Shown piece by piece: positions 15,959 through 35,826 of a stretch of 37,573 nt of DNA. Both the position numbers and the translations under genes were made by a program. The notes beneath the pieces are model-generated. The model was not told the DNA's origin, ran no database searches, and was given only the letters and a program-made list of their open reading frames with translations. Position 1 is the first letter of the stretch. The number at the start of each line of letters is the position of its first letter. Where the stretch lies: positions 1-37,573 of the IMG/VR virus record IMGVR_UViG_3300025159_000336, one strand, 5' to 3'. The stretch is from a virus.

Positions 15959-16335
15959 TAATTCGCGCGCTTCAACCGTCAGATATTGATAAACTACGAG
16001 AAATTCATACTAAATTCTATGAAACTGAATTTCTATTCCCCAATTTTTTAGAGAAATTTATTGGTAGTTTTGTAGTTGTTGATGATAATGAAAATGTAAT
16101 TTCTGGTGGTGGTGTTAAGTCTATTGCTGAATCCATTATTATTACTAATAGAGACTATTCACCACATGAGAGAAAAAGTGCCCTTTTACAAATTCTTCAA
16201 GCTTCTATCTTTGTAGCTAATAGAAATGGATTTGAGCAGTTACATGCCTTCGTTCAAGATGATAAGTGGCATGGAATTCTTAAAAAGTATGGATTTCAGG
16301 ATTGCAAAGGAAATGCACTTTTTCTAGAGGTTTAA
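15955..16335 (+). CDS. GNAT-like acetyltransferase-fold protein
   Basis: A 126-residue product with the layout of a GNAT domain: MIIRALQPSDIDKLREIHTK at the start, a strand FVVVDDNENVISGGGVKSIAE, then a helix ALLQILQASIFVANRNGFEQ, and a final KWHGILKKYGFQDCKGNALF that matches the end of many phage GNAT-like proteins. GNAT enzymes transfer acyl groups from acyl-CoA to amines, but the usual Q/RxxGxG/A CoA-binding loop is not clear here (YSPHERKSALL sits in its place), so activity is doubtful. It overlaps the lysin stop (ATGA). Related genes beside lysins and internal virion proteins are common in podoviruses. Confidence 0.65.
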   Translation: MIIRALQPSDIDKLREIHTKFYETEFLFPNFLEKFIGSFVVVDDNENVISGGGVKSIAESIIITNRDYSPHERKSALLQILQASIFVANRNGFEQLHAFVQDDKWHGILKKYGFQDCKGNALFLEV

Positions 16336-16337
16336 TC

Positions 16338-17486
16338 ATGGCTAAGGGTGATCATAAGAGAATGGAAAACGAAATCAATGCCCAAAGATCGGGCATGATG
16401 GGTGGTCAAGAGAGACTAGAAAACTCTCTCTATGGAACTCAAGGCGCCATGATGAATAATTATAATCAGGGCGCTGGTATGAATTTGGGCTCTTATAATC
16501 AAATTATGCAGGGCTACCAAAACATGTATGATAAACCTTTTGGTGAAGGTGGTATGCCTGGGGTTGGTTATAGTGATCCTTTTGGTTCTGAATATGGTAT
16601 GTATTCTGGATTAGCCCAACAAGGCGGTGGTTATGGTTGGGATCCAGAATGGCGTGGTGCTGTAAGCGGTGCTATTGGTGGATATGGTGATTTTGCTAAA
16701 ACAGGTGGATTTAGTGAAGCTGATTTACAAAACATAAGAGCACGGTCTATTGCACCGACGCGCGCTATTTATTCTAATGCTATGGACCAAGCAGCGCGCG
16801 GTCGTTCTTTACAACAATTCTCACCTAACTATAATGCTGCATTATCTAGAATGGCGCGCGAATCTGGTTATGCTATTGGAGACATCAATACTAATGCTAA
16901 TGCTGGTATTGCCCAAATGGTACAGCAAGGTAAACTAGCTGGATTAGCAGGATTAAGTGGTACAGGATTAGGTGCGCAAGGTAGATCAACTGATATTGAT
17001 AGTCTTAACGCGCAAATGAAGTTGGCTGGTCTAGCTGGCATGACAGGTATTGATCAATCAAGACTTGGTGCTGATTTAAGTGCTTCTGCTGCTAATGCTG
17101 GTAATGTTCAGGATGAAGCGCGTATGAGAATGGCTGCATTAGGTGGAATGACTGATCTCTATGGAACTAATCCTGCATTAGCTAATGTATTCGGTTCACA
17201 AGCATTAGGAGCTGGTCAGAATCTATTAGGTGGTCAGGAATTACGTAATCAAATGGGATTAGGACTAATAGGTTCGCGTTATAACAACGCGCAATTACCT
17301 GGCAATTTCCAATCTGCTATGGGTAATATTGGTTCTGCTATGGGTGTTGGTGGTAGATTTGTTGGTGGATTGATTGGATTAGGAGGTTTAACTGGATTAG
17401 GAGATTATGGTAAGAAAATACTTGGTATTGGTGGTGGTAAAAGTAATCCTCTTGGTGGTTATAATCCTGGTGGGTACAGTTCATAG
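16338..17486 (+). CDS. Gly/Ala/Met-rich putative internal virion (ejection) protein
   Basis: A 382-residue product starting at ATG 16338 behind AGAGG; the longer in-frame start at 16302 lies in the previous gene. It is rich in Gly, Ala, Met, Asn and Gln with segments such as GLAGLSGTGLGAQGR and a Gly-rich C-terminus (GGLIGLGGLTGLG). Proteins with this composition next to two larger helical proteins usually form the ejected trans-envelope channel of short-tailed phages. The hydrophobic glycine-rich tail could span a membrane after ejection. The role is inferred from order and composition. Confidence 0.65.
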   Translation: MAKGDHKRMENEINAQRSGMMGGQERLENSLYGTQGAMMNNYNQGAGMNLGSYNQIMQGYQNMYDKPFGEGGMPGVGYSDPFGSEYGMYSGLAQQGGGYGWDPEWRGAVSGAIGGYGDFAKTGGFSEADLQNIRARSIAPTRAIYSNAMDQAARGRSLQQFSPNYNAALSRMARESGYAIGDINTNANAGIAQMVQQGKLAGLAGLSGTGLGAQGRSTDIDSLNAQMKLAGLAGMTGIDQSRLGADLSASAANAGNVQDEARMRMAALGGMTDLYGTNPALANVFGSQALGAGQNLLGGQELRNQMGLGLIGSRYNNAQLPGNFQSAMGNIGSAMGVGGRFVGGLIGLGGLTGLGDYGKKILGIGGGKSNPLGGYNPGGYSS

Positions 17487-17493
17487 GTGATTT

Positions 17494-18543
17494 ATGGCTA
17501 TTCAGGACATTCAGTTACTTAGTCGCCTAAATAACATATTCAATCCAACACCATTTAATCAAGCTTCATTGCCTGGTAGAGTTAATCCTATGCTTCAGGC
17601 TCCATCTTTTCAGCAACCAGAAATAAATATGGCTGATAGATGGAGTCAGCTTTATCAGCCTGATTTACGTGGTCAGAACATGCTTTACGGAGCATTAGAG
17701 AATTTTCCTCAAAGAGATCAATATAAACCATCTACCTTGAGGAAAATTGGTGCTGCAATTTACGGAATGAGTCAGGAGGATCCTGCTAAAGCTTCTGACC
17801 AATTTCTGAATTATCATTACTATAATGCTCTTAATGATTGGATGAATAGAACTAAACCAATTCAGGAAGCAGCAGGTCTTGAGCGGGAATATAATACTAA
17901 TCAAAGAATGATGGCTGATCAAATAATTCGTAGAGAGCAAGAAGATAGAAGATTAGCTGAAATGGAAAGAAGAAATAAAGAATCTGAAGAACTAAGAGGT
18001 AGACAATTAGGTGAAACTGAAAGAAAGAATCAAGCTACTGAGGAGTTGAATAGAAAAAAACTCGGTTTAGCACAACTTAAAGCTAATAATTATGATTTAG
18101 TAATTGATGATAACACCGGGCTTGTTGTTGGAGTTAACAAAATTGACCCAACTGATGTAGTTCAAACTGGAGTTAAATCTATAGAACTAAGTGATTTAGA
18201 TAAAGCTAATTATGGATTGAGAAATAGATTGCAAGTTGTTGGAGCACAAGGGACGCAAACTAGGCAGAATATTGCTGCTCAAGGTGAACAAACTAGGCAA
18301 AATATTCAACAGAGAGCTATTACACCATCTAGACCAACTACAGGGCCAACAACCCAAACAGAAATTGTTTATGATTCTGAAGGTAATCCTACCGGTACCA
18401 GAATTGTACAAAGAAGTCCAACTACAACCTCTAGTGGTCAACCGCTAATGGTAAGGATGATTGGGCCTGACAATAATGTTTATGAAGTTCCTGTTGATAA
18501 AGTTTCAGATGCTATGAAGAGCGGTATGAAAGTGGTGAAGTAA
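17494..18543 (+). CDS. Putative internal virion protein with coiled coil
   Basis: A 349-residue product with a Pro/Gln-rich N-terminal third and a strongly predicted coiled coil at about residues 130-200 (REQEDRRLAEMERRNKESEE and RGRQLGETERKNQATEEL). Near residues 245-275 there is a short repeat, AQGTQTRQNI / AQGEQTRQNI. The C-terminal third is Thr/Pro-rich. It lies between the Gly-rich protein and the large polyvalent protein and shares its stop with the next start (TAATG). A virion-internal structural role in DNA ejection is likely from context. Confidence 0.6.
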   Translation: MAIQDIQLLSRLNNIFNPTPFNQASLPGRVNPMLQAPSFQQPEINMADRWSQLYQPDLRGQNMLYGALENFPQRDQYKPSTLRKIGAAIYGMSQEDPAKASDQFLNYHYYNALNDWMNRTKPIQEAAGLEREYNTNQRMMADQIIRREQEDRRLAEMERRNKESEELRGRQLGETERKNQATEELNRKKLGLAQLKANNYDLVIDDNTGLVVGVNKIDPTDVVQTGVKSIELSDLDKANYGLRNRLQVVGAQGTQTRQNIAAQGEQTRQNIQQRAITPSRPTTGPTTQTEIVYDSEGNPTGTRIVQRSPTTTSSGQPLMVRMIGPDNNVYEVPVDKVSDAMKSGMKVVK

Positions 18544-21500
18544 TGGCTCAGTGGAAACCACCTGACTACGCGCAACCTATTGGTTCAACATGGAAACCAC
18601 CTAGCTTTGCGCGTTTAGTTGAACAAGCTCCATTACCACAAAAATCACTGTGGGAACGCGCTATTACTCCACTAACTACATTGCCTTCAAGAGCAATAAA
18701 TCCGCTTGCTGAGTCCTTAATGCAAAAAGGAGAATCTGGACAGGGTTTTCTTGGTCAAACCTTACCTCTTTATGGCGGAGCCTATTTACAATCTTTGGGG
18801 AATGTTGTCAGTGGATTGAGCAGTCCATTAAACTTAGCTTTAACTGGAGCTTTTGGAGGTGCTAATTTAGCGACTGGAGCGGGTTTACCAGGATTAAGCT
18901 CTGCATTATCAACTACTGGGCGCGCGTTGTCCATTCCTGTTACAGCTTCAGGTGCTTATCATGCTTACACTGGTGAAACTATTCCTGAAAAATTATTAGG
19001 TGGAATAGAAATGGTTGGTGGTGGATTGGGAATGCGTGCCCCACGTTCAATTTTACCACCATCTCAAGTGCCACCTAAAGCACCTCAAATGCCTGTTCAG
19101 AATTTGAAACTCGGTGTTCCTGAAATTAATCAACCTAGAGGATTATCCTCATCAGAATTTGGATTACCAATTCAACAAGTTGCTCCTGTTTGGAAACCAC
19201 CATCTTACGCTGAACCAATAGCGGCGCGTACTCCTGAAGGTGTTAAGATTGGAGCTGATATAACTTCTCTGGGTAAGATTCTTGGCTCTAGTCTTTATGC
19301 TGGTGATATTGGTAGAATTGCTACTAAGGAACTAATTCAAAATTCTTTCGATGCTGTTAAGAATCTTGGTAAGTATGGTGAAATTAAGGTTTATTTGGAT
19401 AGACCAGGAAAATTTATTGAAGTTAGTGATAATGGATCAGGGTTAACTCTTAATGAGATTAGTACAGTATTTACGGACCTTGGTTCTAGTGGAAAAAGAG
19501 CTGATCCTACTGCTGCTGGTGGGTTTGGACTAGCTAAAGCTGCTCCTTTGCTTGGAGGAAAGAAAGTTGAAGTAACTAGTATTGCTGATGAAATCATTGC
19601 TCAAGGAGTTAAACGTAGAGTTGAATATAAATTTAGCGGAACTCCTGAAGAATTGCTTTCTGGCGTAAAAATTAGGAGCAAGTATGTAGGTTCTGACAAA
19701 CCTACAGGACTAACTGTTAGAACTTATTTGCCTGGTGAGGATATTCCTTTCTATAATATTAGCAGTTATGTTCGGGAATTAGCGGAGAATTCTGTTGGAT
19801 TACAAGGTAAGATAAAATTTATGGATAAAGCCTATGAGGGATGGCTTGATTGGCTTGATGATTCAAAGGAATTTAGATCGCCCTCTTTAAGAGGTGCTAA
19901 TATAGAAACTCTAGAAACTCCAGCATCGTTAATCGATATTATTATTCCAGAAGGAACCAAATATGGTGAATCAACTGGAGTTCCTTATAAAATACTAAAT
20001 AATGGATTGTATCAGGGTGGTGGAAGAGTAGGATGGGATAAGCTACCGGGAATTCCAGAAAATATTATTGTCAACATTAGATCGAAAGTTCCTGAAGGTC
20101 ATCCAGATTATCCATTTACCGCTAACAGAGAATCAATTAGAGGAGTAACGCTAGATAATTTGGGAAAATTTATTAATGATGCTATTATTAAACCATCAAT
20201 AGGCAAAAGAGTTGGGGAATTAAAAGCAATTTATGAAACTATGCCAGAAATGATCTTACCAACTGGCAAAAAATTTTATGTTTATAACACTGGTAATAGA
20301 TTTAATCCAGAAGAATTAGAAATTATTAAAACTAGTCCGGATATGATTAAGTTATCTACTGATATTTCTGAAATAACCGAAAATGCAAAGTTAGCTCTAC
20401 AAAATATTGAATCATTAGAAATTTCAAAATTAGAAAAAATTGGAATAATATTTGAAGATTCTCTTTATGGAATTCATATTCCAGCTCCGGGCGAAGGTAA
20501 GTCAGCCATTTTAATAAATCCTTTCACTATTATAAAAGATAACACACCAGAACAAGCATCAGCAGGATTTCTACATACAATTTTGCACGAAGTAGCTCAT
20601 TTACCTGGTGGTGGTCATGACCAAGGATTTACTACTAGATTAGCTGAAGTTTATTCAAAGTATGGAGCCAGCAATGCTACAGCAGCTCAAAAACGATTCT
20701 TCCAGTCCATTACAAAAGACGGACGAAGTTACACTCCAGAATTACAGACGTTATTACAGCGATATCAAGAATCTCAAGGGAGAAAGTCACTTGGCGATGA
20801 TCCTCTCTTGGGAACGGGAATTAAGCAAAAAGCTCCAGGAACCGGAAAGGAGCAAATTCCTGGCGGTAATCAACCAGATGGAACAGGAATTGCTGTTCGC
20901 AAGCTCATAGAAGTAATTAAAACTGCGCGTCCTATTCGTCAAGTTCAAGAACAACTTTATAGCACTGAAAGAGGTAAAAGAATAGCAGCCAGTAAAGGAG
21001 TAAAGGAAGAAGGAGAAGCAGGCTTTTACAAAGAACTTGGACTAATGAAAGGAGAATTACCTAAAACCGGATTTGAATCAGTTAGAGAAAAATTTGAACA
21101 AATAGATATAGATAATTTATTTAAGGCTATAAGATATTCAGATAAACTAAATGATTTTCAGAAGTTACATGCACGCACCGGATTAGCTAAGTTATTTGGT
21201 GAATATGGCGGAGAAGTTCCTCAAAGAAGTGAACTAGTTCTACTAGAAAAAGTATTTGGTTCTGAACTATCTCAAGTAATTGAAATGCACGGAGGACTAG
21301 GAGTTATTCCTGGTAATATAAGAGAACATATTGGTCAGGCTATAAACGTTCCTAAAGCCATCATGGCTTCGATGGATTTTTCTGCTCCATTAAGGCAGGG
21401 ATTACCATTGATTGCTAAAAAGCAATACTGGAAATCTTTTTCAAATATGTTTAGTTTGTGGAAATCCGAGAAAGCCTTTCAATCGCTTCAACAATCATTA

Positions 21501-22463
21501 CATCAAAGACCATTGTATGAATTTGGGGAACGTGCTGGATTAAAGCTTACTGATATCGGTCAAGGATTGAAAAACAGAGAAGAAGCATTTCTTAGTCAGT
21601 GGGCTGAGCAAATTCCTTTAGCTGGCATTGGAATAAGAGCTTCTGAAAGGGCCTATGTTGGATTTCTTAACAAACTAAGAGCTGATGTATTTGATGATTT
21701 AGTTAAACAAGCATTGAATTTGAACCTCAATATTTTAGAGGAAGCTCCTCAAATTGCTAAATTCGTAAATAATTCTACTGGTAGGGGTTCACTTGGCAGA
21801 TTAGAAAAGATTGGAACAGAATTAAATTGGGGATTCTTTTCTCCTAGACTTATTACTAGTAGATTAACAATATTGAATCCAAGTTACTATATTAAGGCTA
21901 CTCCATTTGTCAGAAAAGAAGCTCTCAAAGCTTTGTTTTCAATAGTTGGGGTTGGCTTAACGGTAAATTCGTTAGCTAAATTGAGCGGTATTAAAGTTGG
22001 AACTGAGCCTACTAGTTCAGATTTGGGTAAGATAATATTTGGAAATACACGTCTTGATCCTTGGGGGGGATTCCAACAGTATATTGCAGCAGCCATGAAA
22101 TTAATTTCCGGTAAATCAACTAGCACAATTTCAGGTAGAGAATCTAAATTTGGAGAATCCTATGTAGCTCCTACAAGACTTAGTGTTATTACCCAATTAG
22201 GTGAAAGCAAACTTAGTCCTATAGCTTCATTTGCAGTAGACATGTTAAGAGGAAAAGATTTTACTGGTAAACCTATAAGTCCGTCAGCAGAAGTGGCTAG
22301 CTTATTTACTCCTATCATTATTAGAGATACAATCGATTTAGCTAAGGAAGATCCAAATTTACTTCCTTTAATAATTCCAGCAGCATTTGGAATGAGTGTT
22401 AATACTTATGAACGAAGGGTACCAAAAATAAGTCCAGGTAGAATGTTGCAAATTCCGAGATAA
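18543..22463 (+). CDS. Large polyvalent virion protein: GHKL ATPase domain plus metzincin-like peptidase
   Basis: A 1306-residue product, the largest in the window. The N-terminal 225 residues contain three copies of a WKPPxYAxPI-like motif. Residues about 255-395 form a Hsp90/MutL-type GHKL ATPase: KELIQNSFDA (N-box), SDNGSGL (G1), SSGKR and GGFGLAKA (lid), and GLTVRTYLP (G2-like). At residues 681-691 stands HEVAHLPGGGH, an exact HExxHxxGxxH metzincin zinc site. The C-terminal 400 residues are helical, with NNSTGRGSLGR and hydrophobic stretches like the large polyvalent-protein associated domains. Such multi-enzyme proteins are packaged and injected with phage DNA, where they may act on host defence or host chaperones; here this is inference. 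It ends the virion operon together with one small gene. Confidence 0.85.
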   Translation: MAQWKPPDYAQPIGSTWKPPSFARLVEQAPLPQKSLWERAITPLTTLPSRAINPLAESLMQKGESGQGFLGQTLPLYGGAYLQSLGNVVSGLSSPLNLALTGAFGGANLATGAGLPGLSSALSTTGRALSIPVTASGAYHAYTGETIPEKLLGGIEMVGGGLGMRAPRSILPPSQVPPKAPQMPVQNLKLGVPEINQPRGLSSSEFGLPIQQVAPVWKPPSYAEPIAARTPEGVKIGADITSLGKILGSSLYAGDIGRIATKELIQNSFDAVKNLGKYGEIKVYLDRPGKFIEVSDNGSGLTLNEISTVFTDLGSSGKRADPTAAGGFGLAKAAPLLGGKKVEVTSIADEIIAQGVKRRVEYKFSGTPEELLSGVKIRSKYVGSDKPTGLTVRTYLPGEDIPFYNISSYVRELAENSVGLQGKIKFMDKAYEGWLDWLDDSKEFRSPSLRGANIETLETPASLIDIIIPEGTKYGESTGVPYKILNNGLYQGGGRVGWDKLPGIPENIIVNIRSKVPEGHPDYPFTANRESIRGVTLDNLGKFINDAIIKPSIGKRVGELKAIYETMPEMILPTGKKFYVYNTGNRFNPEELEIIKTSPDMIKLSTDISEITENAKLALQNIESLEISKLEKIGIIFEDSLYGIHIPAPGEGKSAILINPFTIIKDNTPEQASAGFLHTILHEVAHLPGGGHDQGFTTRLAEVYSKYGASNATAAQKRFFQSITKDGRSYTPELQTLLQRYQESQGRKSLGDDPLLGTGIKQKAPGTGKEQIPGGNQPDGTGIAVRKLIEVIKTARPIRQVQEQLYSTERGKRIAASKGVKEEGEAGFYKELGLMKGELPKTGFESVREKFEQIDIDNLFKAIRYSDKLNDFQKLHARTGLAKLFGEYGGEVPQRSELVLLEKVFGSELSQVIEMHGGLGVIPGNIREHIGQAINVPKAIMASMDFSAPLRQGLPLIAKKQYWKSFSNMFSLWKSEKAFQSLQQSLHQRPLYEFGERAGLKLTDIGQGLKNREEAFLSQWAEQIPLAGIGIRASERAYVGFLNKLRADVFDDLVKQALNLNLNILEEAPQIAKFVNNSTGRGSLGRLEKIGTELNWGFFSPRLITSRLTILNPSYYIKATPFVRKEALKALFSIVGVGLTVNSLAKLSGIKVGTEPTSSDLGKIIFGNTRLDPWGGFQQYIAAAMKLISGKSTSTISGRESKFGESYVAPTRLSVITQLGESKLSPIASFAVDMLRGKDFTGKPISPSAEVASLFTPIIIRDTIDLAKEDPNLLPLIIPAAFGMSVNTYERRVPKISPGRMLQIPR

Positions 22464-22815: not shown

Positions 22816-22892
22816 TGGTGCCACAGATGAGATTCGAACTCATACTATTCAGATTTTAAGTCTGTTGCCTCTACCAGTTGGGCTACTGTGGC
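22816..22892 (-). tRNA. tRNA-Leu (anticodon UAA), CCA encoded
   Basis: The minus strand reads GCCACAG...CTGTGGC, a perfect 7-bp acceptor stem, followed by discriminator A and an encoded CCA. A D-arm with GG in the loop, an anticodon arm with stem CAGA/TCTG and loop CTTAAAA, and a T-arm ATGAG-TTCGAAT-CTCAT complete the cloverleaf. The anticodon is UAA, reading UUA (Leu), a codon that is abundant in this AT-rich phage. The variable loop is short (5 bases), unlike the long arm of most bacterial tRNA-Leu, and the top pair of the anticodon stem is an A-A mismatch. It overlaps the 3' end of the DHH gene by 48 bases, so the C-terminal residues of that protein are encoded by tRNA sequence. Confidence 0.9.
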
Positions 22893-23687
22893 AATGAATC
22901 CTGCTGAATTTTTATGTCCACCTCCTCCATATTTCTTAGCCACTTCACTTACATCAAAATCCCCAATAGATCGCAATCCCCATTGTCTTTTGCCATCATT
23001 TCTATCAAAGTAATAAGCTGAAAACAATCCTAAATTTCTTTTACAGAGTTCATTTCCAACTTCACTAAATAGTATTGAAGCATTAACAACAGGAACAGAA
23101 TAACCACCTATATCTTTCATAATAAAAGTATTACACATATCCTTAACTAATTTATCCATATAACGAAGAATACCATGTCCAATAATTTTTGCATCTTTAA
23201 TATCATTTTCTAAGCGTGAATATAAATAATTATAAATTTCAATATTCATTTCATAGGATTGAATATAGGCATTTATTGCTCTTGATTCATTTTCTTTGAA
23301 TAACCACAAATCTCTATCCTTGATATATCTAACTAGAAAAGGAATATCTAAATCAGGAAAGAACCATTTCCAGGCTAAAGAAGCGCCGCTTTCGTTCATA
23401 TCAAATATTGCATATGAAGCATCTTTTAGAGAAGTTTCGGCGGTTTTGTGATGATCTAAAACTACTAATTTATTCACTTTGGAATAAAGTAAATCCATCA
23501 AATTTCGTGGTAAACTGAAATCTACGAAATAAATATCATCATTTCTGTTACAATTTTCTATAATCGATTCGTAAGGCTCTCCATAGTTTATTGGTATATA
23601 ATCAGCATGTTTACTGAATTCTCTCCAAGCTACCCATGCACTACAGATGCCATCAAAACAATTTTTGTGATAATAAATTTTAATCAC
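22845..23687 (-). CDS. DHH-family phosphoesterase
   Basis: A 280-residue product of the DHH/DHHA1 superfamily (NrnA/RecJ relatives), metal-dependent enzymes that hydrolyse short oligonucleotides or related phosphodiesters. Visible motifs are YYHKNCFDGICSAW (motif I Asp), IYFVDFSLPR (motif II Asp), VLDHHKTAE (the DHH motif), DMNESGASLAW and a C-terminal YGGGGHKNSAGF (DHHA1 substrate-binding loop). I chose the GTG at 23687 because GAAGGGAAAG precedes it. A single DHH-DHHA1 unit of this size fits nanoRNase or cyclic-dinucleotide phosphodiesterase relatives rather than RecJ. The last 16 residues after NSAGF are encoded by the tRNA gene and look like an added tail. Possible jobs are recycling of pNpN from nucleic acid breakdown or removal of host signalling nucleotides. 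Confidence 0.88.
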   Translation of the reverse strand: MIKIYYHKNCFDGICSAWVAWREFSKHADYIPINYGEPYESIIENCNRNDDIYFVDFSLPRNLMDLLYSKVNKLVVLDHHKTAETSLKDASYAIFDMNESGASLAWKWFFPDLDIPFLVRYIKDRDLWLFKENESRAINAYIQSYEMNIEIYNYLYSRLENDIKDAKIIGHGILRYMDKLVKDMCNTFIMKDIGGYSVPVVNASILFSEVGNELCKRNLGLFSAYYFDRNDGKRQWGLRSIGDFDVSEVAKKYGGGGHKNSAGFIATVAQLVEATDLKSE

Positions 23688-23689
23688 GA

Positions 23690-24889
23690 TTACTTTCCCT
23701 TCAAATGATTTGTCCAATCAGTTACTTGTTGAATAGGCATTCTATACACAATTTGATTACCTACTGACTCAACTATAATTACTCCTGCTACTTGAAGTGA
23801 TTCCATGATCTCATCCCATTCCTGAGATGACGCGCGCATCCAATACTTCCTATTTAATTGTTGGCGCGTAATCATATGGTTGGAACGGTTTATCAATTCA
23901 TTTATAACTAAAGCTTTTTCTTGTGTGCTTACTGATTTACCACTACTCATTGTAGTCTTTCTTACATTACCTATAAGGAATTCACATCTACTAATAGCTT
24001 GCTCCATTGAAAGAAGATTTATAGTTAATTTAGGAGAACTAGACAATGAAATCAACATAGCTACTTTCATTACTGATTCAGAAAGCCTATTAAGAGTTCC
24101 TGTTGGATCTTTAACATCTTGTTCTTCCATTTTATGAATAAAATCATGATACCATTCTTCATATAAATTACCAGCAGGTGTATTCTCTAAATCAGCAAAA
24201 GCTCCATGAATTTTAGCTAATTCTTTTAAGTATATAACTAAATGTTCATAATTAGGAATTACATCAGGTTTACGAATTAAAGGATTTATTTTGTTTCTTT
24301 TGCTTTCATGAATAATGAAGGAACGCGCGATGTATCCACCTTGTATATCTTTTCTAGTGAATAATGCTTCGGCATGAGCCTCATTTAATCCACCTAATAA
24401 AGTGATAGTTGGATCTTTCAGAGAAAATACTTCCATTTTGAGAAGTGATTTATATTCACCGGTATTGTATGAACGATCATACAAATCCGTAAGAATATCT
24501 AAAGCTGCTTTATCTTCTACAATTGATGCGCTCAGTTCTGATGAACATATGAATGCTGCTGATCTAGTGTCAATCTTACCACCCGGTTTAGTTTCTGCTG
24601 TTCCAAGCTCTTTAAGAATTCCTTGAATTGAACTTCTACCAGAAATTATTTTAGTGGCATTAGTAGCGCGTACCAGTTGTTTGGCGACATTTATAGGTGG
24701 TCCTTTCTTTAATCCAGAATCGGCATAAAGAAGTACATATATATTTGGGTATGATTTATAGAGGTATCGATTAACCCATACGTTATCTCTTACTACTGCA
24801 CTGATAATAGTTAATGCTGCCCAATACCAGAAATTAACTGGCGATTCAAATTCTTCATGTTGAGCTAAGAATTCTTCAAGCCATGTCAT
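23690..24889 (-). CDS. DUF3987-like P-loop ATPase, possible helicase/primase partner
   Basis: A 399-residue product resembling DUF3987-type phage and mobile-element ATPases: SPVNFWYWAALTIISAVVRDNVWV at the start, a P-loop-like YADSGLKKGPPINVAK at about residue 55, TRSAAFICSSELS (Walker B-like), and LLGGLNEAHAEALFTRKDIQ followed by GGYIARSFIIHES. The C-terminal 80 residues look like a winged helix (TRQQLNRKYWMRASSQEWDE). Such proteins are thought to help DNA replication as helicase relatives. The Walker A lysine is kept, but the usual following Ser/Thr is Gly, so ATPase activity is uncertain. It shares one base with the upstream gene's stop. The position next to DNA polymerase genes fits a replication role. 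Confidence 0.65.
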   Translation of the reverse strand: MTWLEEFLAQHEEFESPVNFWYWAALTIISAVVRDNVWVNRYLYKSYPNIYVLLYADSGLKKGPPINVAKQLVRATNATKIISGRSSIQGILKELGTAETKPGGKIDTRSAAFICSSELSASIVEDKAALDILTDLYDRSYNTGEYKSLLKMEVFSLKDPTITLLGGLNEAHAEALFTRKDIQGGYIARSFIIHESKRNKINPLIRKPDVIPNYEHLVIYLKELAKIHGAFADLENTPAGNLYEEWYHDFIHKMEEQDVKDPTGTLNRLSESVMKVAMLISLSSSPKLTINLLSMEQAISRCEFLIGNVRKTTMSSGKSVSTQEKALVINELINRSNHMITRQQLNRKYWMRASSQEWDEIMESLQVAGVIIVESVGNQIVYRMPIQQVTDWTNHLKGK

Positions 24890-33673: not shown

Positions 33674-33829
33674 TTATTTGAGAAATATTTCATAATCTTC
33701 CCAATCAAGTGATATATAGCCCTTGTCTACTGCATTTTCAAATACTTCATTTGTTATCTGTCGAGCTATTTTGCTTGCTTTTTTTTTCTTTTTCTTTATC
33801 TTCTTAAACTTCTTAATTGGTTTATTCAT
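33674..33829 (-). CDS. Small Lys-rich protein, unknown function
   Basis: A 51-residue product beginning MNKPIKKFKKIKKKKKKASK and ending with the acidic YISLDWEDYEIFLK. The ATG at 33829 overlaps the helicase gene stop by ATGA. The basic N-terminus probably binds nucleic acid; the acidic end may contact a partner. It is the gene directly after the SNF2 fusion and was found by reading the gap between the flanking genes. Confidence 0.6.
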   Translation of the reverse strand: MNKPIKKFKKIKKKKKKASKIARQITNEVFENAVDKGYISLDWEDYEIFLK

Positions 33830-35826
33830 TTTTGACTCGCAATAGCAGCAGCTAATTCTTTAATTATAGATTTTTCATTCCATCCTGTTAATGAACCTTT
33901 ATTCATTGTGTTGTGAAACTCTATACGCTTCCCTTCTACAATTCCATCAAGTATTGTATCTACGGTGCTATCGCCTAATACATAGATAGAATTAACCTGC
34001 TCTGCTGTTTGGCCTATGCGAATGAAACGACCTTCTGCTTGTTCTTCATTAGCAGGATTCCATTGTCTTTCGTGCAATATGCAATCAGAGCATGTTTGTA
34101 AGTTCAATCCTTCTCCTGAAGCTAATGTGGAAGCGATAAGTAATCTGTAGTTGGGACTATTAAACTTTTCTTGAACAGAAAATCTTTCATCAGGCGATAA
34201 ATCAGCGGTAAGAACCAAAGGTTCCTGTAAATTGTTTTCTTTACAGTAATTCCTCATTTGTTCGCTGATTAGTTCCCCACATTTCTTGTGATGAACAAAG
34301 CAAGCAATTTTTCTGTCTGTATCTTCTAGAAATTCCTGGAGATATTCTACTGTTGTAGGAACTTTAGCTATTCCTACAATTTGGCGCATGATTATTAGAG
34401 ATTGCATGATTGATGCATTTGTTTTGAAACTATCTTCTTCTCCCGAGAGAACTGCATCATTCCATATAGCTTTAATTTTATCACGCTCCTCGTTATATAC
34501 TTTGCGCGCGTGGTCGGGTACTTCACAGTACAAACGTGTTCTATTAACTAATGGTAACTCTGGCATTACTTCCTTACGCTCGCGCCGAATAGCTATATGC
34601 TTTATCTGTTCGCGGAACTTTTCTGGATTTTTAATTCCACCTTCACAATATTTATTGCCATTCCAATAATTAGAAACATAGCGGTATTGAAAATCTTTGT
34701 AAGACCAAAACATCTTCGGGTCTAACATGTTTAGAACTACAAAGAATTCCGAACCGCGATTTTTCCAAGGTGTTCCTGATAGTGGGATAATCTTCGTAAT
34801 CTCGCGTACTACTTTTCTTACTGCTTGCGTTCTATTACTGTCTGGATTTTTGATAGCTTGACATTCATCTAGAACTACTGTTTGTATTCCTGCATCTACA
34901 AACATTTGTAAATCTAATCTACGGAATAAATCATAACTAATTAGATAGCCTTTCATTCCTGGAATAAGAAAATCACTACCTTTCTGAAGAATTTGTGGAA
35001 AGTATTCGTTGCCTAACACGCGAATAATTTCTTTTGCGTGCTGATATTTTATTCCTGCTTTTGTTACCCACAAATAGGGGAAGCATTCGGAGTTATACTT
35101 TAGATAAGCAAGGGCTTGAATGGTTTTGCCTAAACCCATTTCATCGAAAATAGCGAGACGACCGTTCGCTTTTTCGAGAGAACGCGCGCCTTCTATCTGA
35201 TATTTATATAGACGCTTCGCATTACAATTTCTACAAATAGTCTTATCCCAATTATGAATACATGTTTTGTTACCGTCAAATACTAAATCTTCAAACCGCG
35301 ATTTAGAATCTGACCGCCTGAGAATAACGTGTAGACATTCTAGAGTTATTACTACAAATCCTGGAACTTCTACACGTTCTTTTTCTTTCGCTACTTTGCC
35401 ACAGATTTCGCATTTATCTTGCAGACGTGTTACGGTGTATTTAGGTGTGCGAATTATTTGTTCTTCAAAATCTACTTTGAGTTCCGCGCCGGAGCGTATT
35501 GCATCAACGGCGTCATCAGATAATGTGTAGTTCGCGCAAGGCATTGTGTTATCGCAACCTAATTCGCGCGCCTTATCTGCCCATACACTATCGTGCTTAT
35601 GGTGTGGAGTTAACGCATGAGCTACTTCATGTAGAATTGTATTACGTACTTCTGGTGTAGGATGCGTATCTATGTGATGCGCGTTGAGAATTATGCACTT
35701 ATCTTTGTAACTACACAATCCTAGAAATGGTTTGGAAAAATCTGTAGTTAGTCTAATGTGCCAATCGCGTAATTCATTGGCATCTAAAGTATCACGAAGT
35801 AGTTTGGTAGCATCGGTTCTAGTCAT
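33826..35826 (-). CDS. SprT-like zinc peptidase fused to SNF2-family helicase
   Basis: A 666-residue fusion. Residues about 1-90 are a SprT/SPARTAN-type metalloprotease: ILHEVAHALTPHHKHDSVWA (HExxH at 66-70 and a third His near 76-78, as in SprT). Cys-rich segments follow (CEICGK at about 137 and CIHNWDKTICRNCN at about 190-205). Then comes a SNF2 helicase: DEMGLGKT (Walker A, about 225), VVLDECQAIKNP (DExx box, about 316), SGTPWKN (about 348), and the second RecA lobe with ASGEGLNLQ and EQAEGRFIRIGQT. SNF2 proteins remodel or strip proteins from DNA; SPARTAN cleaves proteins crosslinked to DNA. A fusion would combine both in one protein. It overlaps the downstream start by ATGA and is the second gene of the leftward unit. 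Confidence 0.85.
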   Translation of the reverse strand: MTRTDATKLLRDTLDANELRDWHIRLTTDFSKPFLGLCSYKDKCIILNAHHIDTHPTPEVRNTILHEVAHALTPHHKHDSVWADKARELGCDNTMPCANYTLSDDAVDAIRSGAELKVDFEEQIIRTPKYTVTRLQDKCEICGKVAKEKERVEVPGFVVITLECLHVILRRSDSKSRFEDLVFDGNKTCIHNWDKTICRNCNAKRLYKYQIEGARSLEKANGRLAIFDEMGLGKTIQALAYLKYNSECFPYLWVTKAGIKYQHAKEIIRVLGNEYFPQILQKGSDFLIPGMKGYLISYDLFRRLDLQMFVDAGIQTVVLDECQAIKNPDSNRTQAVRKVVREITKIIPLSGTPWKNRGSEFFVVLNMLDPKMFWSYKDFQYRYVSNYWNGNKYCEGGIKNPEKFREQIKHIAIRRERKEVMPELPLVNRTRLYCEVPDHARKVYNEERDKIKAIWNDAVLSGEEDSFKTNASIMQSLIIMRQIVGIAKVPTTVEYLQEFLEDTDRKIACFVHHKKCGELISEQMRNYCKENNLQEPLVLTADLSPDERFSVQEKFNSPNYRLLIASTLASGEGLNLQTCSDCILHERQWNPANEEQAEGRFIRIGQTAEQVNSIYVLGDSTVDTILDGIVEGKRIEFHNTMNKGSLTGWNEKSIIKELAAAIASQK

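Follow-up and report, generated by a model that had tools for sequence, protein, structure and literature searches.

Very large multidomain proteins of phages and plasmids, the polyvalent proteins, carry swappable effector domains together with a conserved uncharacterised helical domain (Iyer et al., 2017; PMC5512222). Zincins are the most common cargo described there for phage polyvalent proteins, and they have been proposed to process the proteins that contain them (Iyer et al., 2017; PMC5512222). A second related group is the RIIA proteins of phages such as T4 and N4, in which a GHKL domain precedes variable C-termini and for which a role in counter-defence is suspected (PMC7824862). RIIA genes are paired with RIIB genes.

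GHKL clamps drive topoisomerases, mismatch-repair nucleases, chaperones and kinases. Binding of ATP makes the GHKL N-domains dimerise, and the transducer domain supplies a basic residue (Arg380 in yeast Hsp90) that contacts the gamma-phosphate. In MutL and gyrase, movement of the clamp is relayed to a nuclease or a DNA gate. Among zinc peptidases, metzincins are defined by a fixed HExxHxxGxxH/D motif and a Met-turn past the third ligand, and the cellular SprT/WLM proteases act on DNA-bound proteins.

The viral DNA analysed here, termed the window, is the whole stretch of 37,573 nucleotides. An uninterrupted open reading frame at positions 18543-22463 on the plus strand encodes a protein of 1306 amino acids, which almost certainly combines two predicted catalytic domains, a GHKL ATPase and a zinc-protease domain (Table 1). 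The initial annotation had named four motifs in this protein, and all are found in the order given: KELIQNSFDA from K262, SDNGSGL from S295, GGFGLAKA from G326 and HEVAHLPGGGH from H682, the HExxH zinc site lying 356 residues beyond the G-loop. Its residue numbers N266 and E682 are one too low: N267 is the Asn that binds Mg, E683 is the catalytic Glu, and H682 is the first His. In 20,000 shuffles of the window protein, HExxHxxxxxH did not appear at all and HExxH alone appeared 124 times.

Table 1. Features of the 1306-amino-acid protein and of the genes immediately upstream; nucleotide positions are those of the window.
Feature	Residues	Positions	Strand	Evidence or remark
394-aa protein		16302..17486	+	neighbour kept in most syntenic contigs
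349-aa protein		17494..18543	+	immediately upstream, with translational coupling; the neighbour is conserved
WKPPDYA, linker motif copy 1	4-10	18552..18572	+	
WKPPSFA, linker motif copy 2	17-23	18591..18611	+	
WKPPSYA, linker motif copy 3	217-223	19191..19211	+	about 10 residues ahead of the ATPase
GHKL ATPase domain	231-432	19233..19838	+	Pfam, profile search, invariance 28/28
Transducer (middle) domain; R529 invariant; long helix at its exit	451-565	19893..20237	+	AlphaFold2 model, VIA
SprT/WLM-like zincin domain	599-723	20337..20711	+	AlphaFold2 topology, conservation in alignment A8
Zinc site H682-E683-xx-H686-xxxxx-H692		20586..20618	+	HExxH 27/27
All-helical C-terminal constant domain	785-1300	20895..22442	+	24-sequence alignment, AlphaFold2 pLDDT 85

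The N-terminal half of the pair is readily recognised. The Pfam family HATPase_c_3 covers residues 259-352 above its curated cut-off (E 7.5e-9), and the Bergerat residues E263, N267, D270, D296, G298, G300, G326 and G329 supply the Glu base, the Asn, the DxGxG motif and the G-loop, such that the GHKL signature is complete, as had been claimed. A search of the PDB with a single module sequence produced no informative match; the profile of alignment A6 retrieved the N-domains of GRP94, TRAP1 and HtpG (E 1.5e-16 for GRP94). Structure prediction, which had been proposed as a check, was carried out with AlphaFold2 on alignment A6 (14 sequences; mean pLDDT 80) and yields an Hsp90/topoisomerase-VI-B-type N+M fold followed by a zincin topology. 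Model residues 4-327 (protein residues 231-554) align with the N-domain plus transducer of Hsp90, TRAP1, topoisomerase VI-B, GyrB and MORC2 at VIA Z scores of 18-20 (19-20 for Hsp90, topoisomerase VI-B and GyrB), one example being 8eob_B (Z 19.5, rmsd 3.6, 276 aligned residues). R529 lies in an NRE motif that corresponds to the catalytic transducer Arg, and a helix of 32 residues (534-565) exits the transducer. A few whole-chain VIA alignments extend past the transducer into the zincin-like fold, to model residues 472-487, with rmsd of 9-11. In BFVD, the viral protein model A0A516L4L2 aligns along the whole module (E 1e-23, TMq 0.65, 20% identity), followed in the list by a viral Hsp83 and then by RIIA proteins. 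PADLOC gave weak GHKL-level matches only (TmtA, 6e-5 to 2e-3).

The protein thus resembles Hsp90, HtpG, TRAP1 and topoisomerase VI-B in having a GHKL N-domain and an S5-like transducer with a catalytic Arg, but differs in that, in the model, a zincin-like fold follows where Hsp90 would have its C-terminal dimerisation domain and the topoisomerase its partner. As in MutL, a single chain couples a GHKL clamp to a hydrolase; the hydrolase of MutL, however, is an endonuclease and that of the window module a predicted protease. Of the earlier designation Hsp90/MutL-type, the GHKL part stands, and the type is better put as Hsp90/RIIA/topoisomerase-VI-B.

The second domain has the order of a zincin in the AlphaFold2 model: a helix, three strands, the HExxH helix and a second helix, with pLDDT of about 82-96. 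An [IL]NP strand followed by HExxH-x(5+)-H-xxx-[FWY] is present, in an order that matches SprT, WLM/Wss1 and YgjP, with which it is shared in the form HELAH-x5+-H-xxx-[FW]. Family scores are weak. Pfam WLM on residues 678-732 reaches E 0.033 and 14.7 bits against a cut-off of 26, and the E values of WLM for the zincin range from 0.016 to 0.033; the top PDB match of the profile of alignment A8 is Wss1, at E 0.11. Probabilities from hhalign are 69 for a phage SprT-like set, 33 for YgjP and 4 for SprT (single sequences), and 0.1-0.4 for two unrelated controls. The domain is called SprT/WLM-like here with scores below the family cut-offs, its nearest relatives appearing to be of the SprT/WLM/YgjP type and the assignment to a family being provisional. 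It departs from these families also in its fusion to a GHKL ATPase and in the third ligand (aligned position 692), which is His in 18 of 27 proteins and Glu in the other 9.

The zinc site had been described as a metzincin site. The zincin-like character is upheld; metzincin identity is rejected. The window protein itself fits HExxHxxGxxH, but among its relatives the Gly varies and the spacing is 5-7 residues, with one long insert (variants include HEMAHIEPERAGH, HELAHVDPSGRMGH and HEILHDTYKGH), and no Met is found within 100 residues past H692 of the window protein, where a Met-turn was looked for. The resemblance to SprT, WLM and YgjP is also the better one. The zincins of the described polyvalent proteins have as third ligand a Glu in the next helix, as opposed to a His (or Glu) at least five residues after HExxH in the window module (PMC5512222).

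Other phages were searched for the same domain pair. The window protein alone as query retrieved relatives of its C-terminal part only, and a direct scan of IMG/VR with its GHKL-zincin stretch retrieved none. A2, a GHKL alignment that includes RIIA sequences, led to five close relatives; in two of them a clear HExxHxxxxxH occupies the corresponding position, and in two others the spacing is slightly longer; alignments A4 and A6 enlarged the set. It now comprises 28 distinct phage proteins, the window protein included: 25 that are alignable after de-duplication and three that were reached via the C-terminal domain. E263, N267, D270, D296, G298, G300, G326, G329 and R529 are identical in all 28, and H682, E683 and H686 in all 27 that reach the zincin. 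Most members were found by DNA patterns on KEL.QN, FTDLG and GGxGxAK, such that conservation at those places is partly selected. A pattern containing NRE was used in one scan only, and no member was contributed solely by that scan. Conservation of HExxH and R529 is not a selection effect, since both are absent from the scan patterns by which members were found. The three proteins reached via the C-terminal domain also keep all the listed GHKL residues, R529 and HExxH.

Taken singly, each motif is short, and chance motifs in an unrelated structural protein could be envisaged. This reading is refuted by the conservation across 28 relatives and by the confident AlphaFold2 model, and its probability is negligible: with GHKL, transducer and zincin kept as one unit in these proteins, their pairing cannot be put down to chance. 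Divergence of the GHKL-transducer part is correlated with that of the zincin (r 0.72 for 24 proteins, reached in 0 of 2000 permutations), a correlation to which shared phylogeny contributes. Among the best 80 of 362 relatives of the C-terminal domain, HExxH is found in 7 of 7 proteins with GHKL, two of them near-identical, versus 1 of 73 without it. Judged from these alignments, the GHKL-transducer-zincin module is inherited as a unit with both active sites conserved.

The module occurs together with a C-terminal domain of the window type in some relatives, and also in unrelated large proteins that lack this domain (L105, L112, L113, L114, L138 and L149). It is also found nearly or fully on its own, in L161 (490 amino acids, with little else) and in L159 (812 amino acids). 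As L161 is hardly more than the module, the module is self-sufficient. When 84,980 genomes were scanned, alignment A4 retrieved nothing and A6 a single contig, L138. This contig belongs to a MAG of Acidobacteria, and a phage DNA polymerase is encoded next to the module. The module protein of L113 (3939-14948) is a phage protein of 3669 amino acids that displays a further HExxH site at residue 1061.

The pairing of a GHKL ATPase with a zincin seems to be undescribed, although zincins in polyvalent proteins and the GHKL domain of RIIA are each already known. By tblastn, the transducer-zincin stretch found nothing in plasmids and, among isolated phages, a single match at chance level (E 3), the stand-alone form of L161 had no match in isolated phages or plasmids, and L112 and L114 gave GHKL-type matches only (RIIA, HtpG and unannotated proteins). 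Neither a GHKL/Hsp90-zincin pairing nor, more generally, a GHKL clamp coupled to a protease was found in the literature searched, in keeping with the initial annotation, to which such a pairing in a podovirus ejection-protein position was not a familiar one, and the term GHKL/Hsp90 is absent from the main text of the survey of polyvalent proteins (PMC5512222).

The C-terminal domain is encoded at 362 places in IMG/VR. Among the best 80 of these, the sequence ahead of it varies from 0 to 1556 amino acids. A histidine-phosphatase domain was recognised as cargo in relatives, as were, by weak matches, ParB-like and HNH-like segments. As one constant domain carries such widely varying N-terminal cargo, the protein is considered polyvalent: several unrelated enzymatic domains are swapped on a common domain. 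The proposal made from the sequence is supported in so far as a GHKL ATPase and a zinc-peptidase domain are paired in one polyvalent-type protein at the end of a structural operon. The likeness to the published polyvalent proteins extends to their large size, multidomain build, swappable effectors, zincin and conserved helical domain (PMC5512222); in contrast to those systems, the C-terminal domain of the window protein matches no Pfam family. Neither Pfam nor PHROGs offers a convincing family for it, and its predicted fold has no match in the PDB (lowest Foldseek E 0.18, highest VIA Z 5.1). It is a candidate general cargo carrier.

Other cargo was seen by eye. L007 and L008 have a YRG-type, ADP-ribosyltransferase-like segment ahead of a C-terminal domain of the window type. 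L103, L108 and L009 have in common a GNAT-like segment with the pattern GGxGHPE...GxPGLSVE...AxAKIVxDxxGKNxVxDLA after the linker motif; this segment occurs in proteins that have the GHKL module and in others that lack it.

This linker motif, W-x-PP-x-[YF]-A, appears in two copies near the N-terminus and in more copies further in, before cargo domains. It is carried by the window protein, L009, L101, L103, L108 and, as the sixth, L237. A first count gave 17 copies in five proteins and none in the rest of 1006 open reading frame records, some contigs being double-counted. At the DNA level the three window copies share TGGAAACCACC. The motif may possibly serve as a docking, processing or recombination point.

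Its location at domain boundaries in the window protein and five relatives is what a maturation protease would call for. The zincin would then cut its own polyvalent protein, for example at W-x-PP-x-[YF]-A, and free an RIIA-like ATPase effector, in line with the proposal by Iyer et al. (2017; PMC5512222) that such zincins process the polyvalent proteins to which they belong. This is unlikely. The 490-amino-acid L161 has nothing else to release, and the module is found also in the 812-amino-acid L159; L009/L231 and L237 carry the linker motif but lack HExxH, and many module proteins are without the motif. Self-processing also leaves the constant pairing of ATPase and zincin unexplained. As a stand-alone form exists, a target in trans is favoured over self-processing alone.

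The gene is the last rightward late (structural) gene. Its start overlaps the stop of the preceding gene at 18543, and replication genes follow on the opposite strand. The same slot in syntenic contigs is occupied by other cargo (L008, L009, L018) or by the module (L101-L104, L106-L110). The operon of the module gene in L159 also encodes, a few genes further upstream, a PHROG 'internal virion protein' (2.9e-57), and in MW202497 a relative of the C-terminal domain is two genes past an annotated 'phage stabilization protein'. These locations are compatible with a slot for ejection proteins. Solved structures gave no identity for the 512-amino-acid neighbour or for a 756-amino-acid protein that is a possible portal, so a podovirus morphology is only proposed, from gene order. 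At the switch from late to replication genes, a tRNA-Leu(taa) gene (22816-22892, minus strand) overlaps the 3′ end of an open reading frame for a DHH phosphoesterase (22845-23717, minus strand).

Because the gene is last in the late operon, ejection with the DNA is suggested, and delivery of the protein by this route is, with gene position as the basis, slightly favoured. This position bears as well on whether the protein is an RIIA-type factor, synthesised during infection for membrane protection or exclusion and not ejected. The GHKL part matches PHROG RIIA lysis inhibitor (6e-10), tblastn finds N4-type RIIA, and identity with the GHKL N-domain of the T4 and N4 proteins is about 25-30%. RIIA of N4, however, has no HExxH and adjoins RIIB, whereas the window gene ends a structural operon and the proteins flanking it have no RIIB match in Pfam or PHROGs. 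An RIIA-type role is accordingly very unlikely.

The explanation preferred for the whole, to which about even odds are given, is a virion-anchored polyvalent protein whose cargo, an ATP-gated zinc protease, enters with the DNA. The constant helical C-terminal domain, perhaps together with the W-x-PP-x-[YF]-A linkers, would anchor the protein in the virion. The cargo would be a two-domain enzyme consisting of an Hsp90/TopoVI-B-type GHKL domain and transducer, a long helix and an SprT/WLM-like zinc protease, the latter probably occupying the position of the Hsp90 C-terminal dimerisation domain. By comparison with relatives, ATP binding would shut the GHKL clamp, and R529 in the transducer would sense the gamma-phosphate. 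Closure of the clamp, by analogy with MutL and gyrase, might position or unlock the zincin on a captured protein. That the cargo is an ATP-gated metalloprotease of this kind is an evenly balanced proposition. The position of the gene suggests that the protein could enter the cell alongside the DNA and act early on host proteins.

Ejection proteins unfold to traverse a narrow portal, and an Hsp90-type N+M fold might suit a chaperone-like factor that assists in assembling or unfolding the ejection apparatus, with a zincin fold that binds and does not cut. Retention of the HExxH general-base Glu and zinc ligands in 27 of 27 proteins is unexpected for a binding-only fold. Moreover, the module is missing from the majority of proteins that share the C-terminal domain, and must therefore be dispensable for assembly. 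A chaperone-like role is quite improbable, though a little less so than the RIIA-type one.

As for the target of an ATP-gated protease, the SprT/WLM relatives act on DNA-bound proteins, and the best guess, a speculative one, is therefore a protein of the host or of a defence system that is bound to DNA. Counter-defence as the function is doubtful at present. Only tentatively, and with marginally better prospects, can the module be regarded as a new class of ATP-gated protease that is carried in the particle, injected, and dismantles host complexes, whether DNA-bound or belonging to defence, as infection begins.

The module may be a protease under the control of ATP that is brought into the host by the phage. 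If ATP closure does control the zincin, it would represent a new mode of gating proteolysis. The stand-alone form of 490 amino acids is small enough for purification and direct test. Of further interest is that an RIIA-like ATPase, the function of which has long been open, is here set beside an enzymatic output that can be read. Phages may also have a general handle for bringing protein cargo into cells in the constant C-terminal domain, for which 362 relatives were found and no fold is known.

The same phage encodes a second zinc-protease-like domain. An SNF2-type helicase of 666 amino acids (33826-35826, minus strand) has an N-terminal SprT-like zincin (TILHEVAHALTPHHKHDSVW; 35440-35826) that is followed by Cys pairs, and its relatives are found in 14 contigs.
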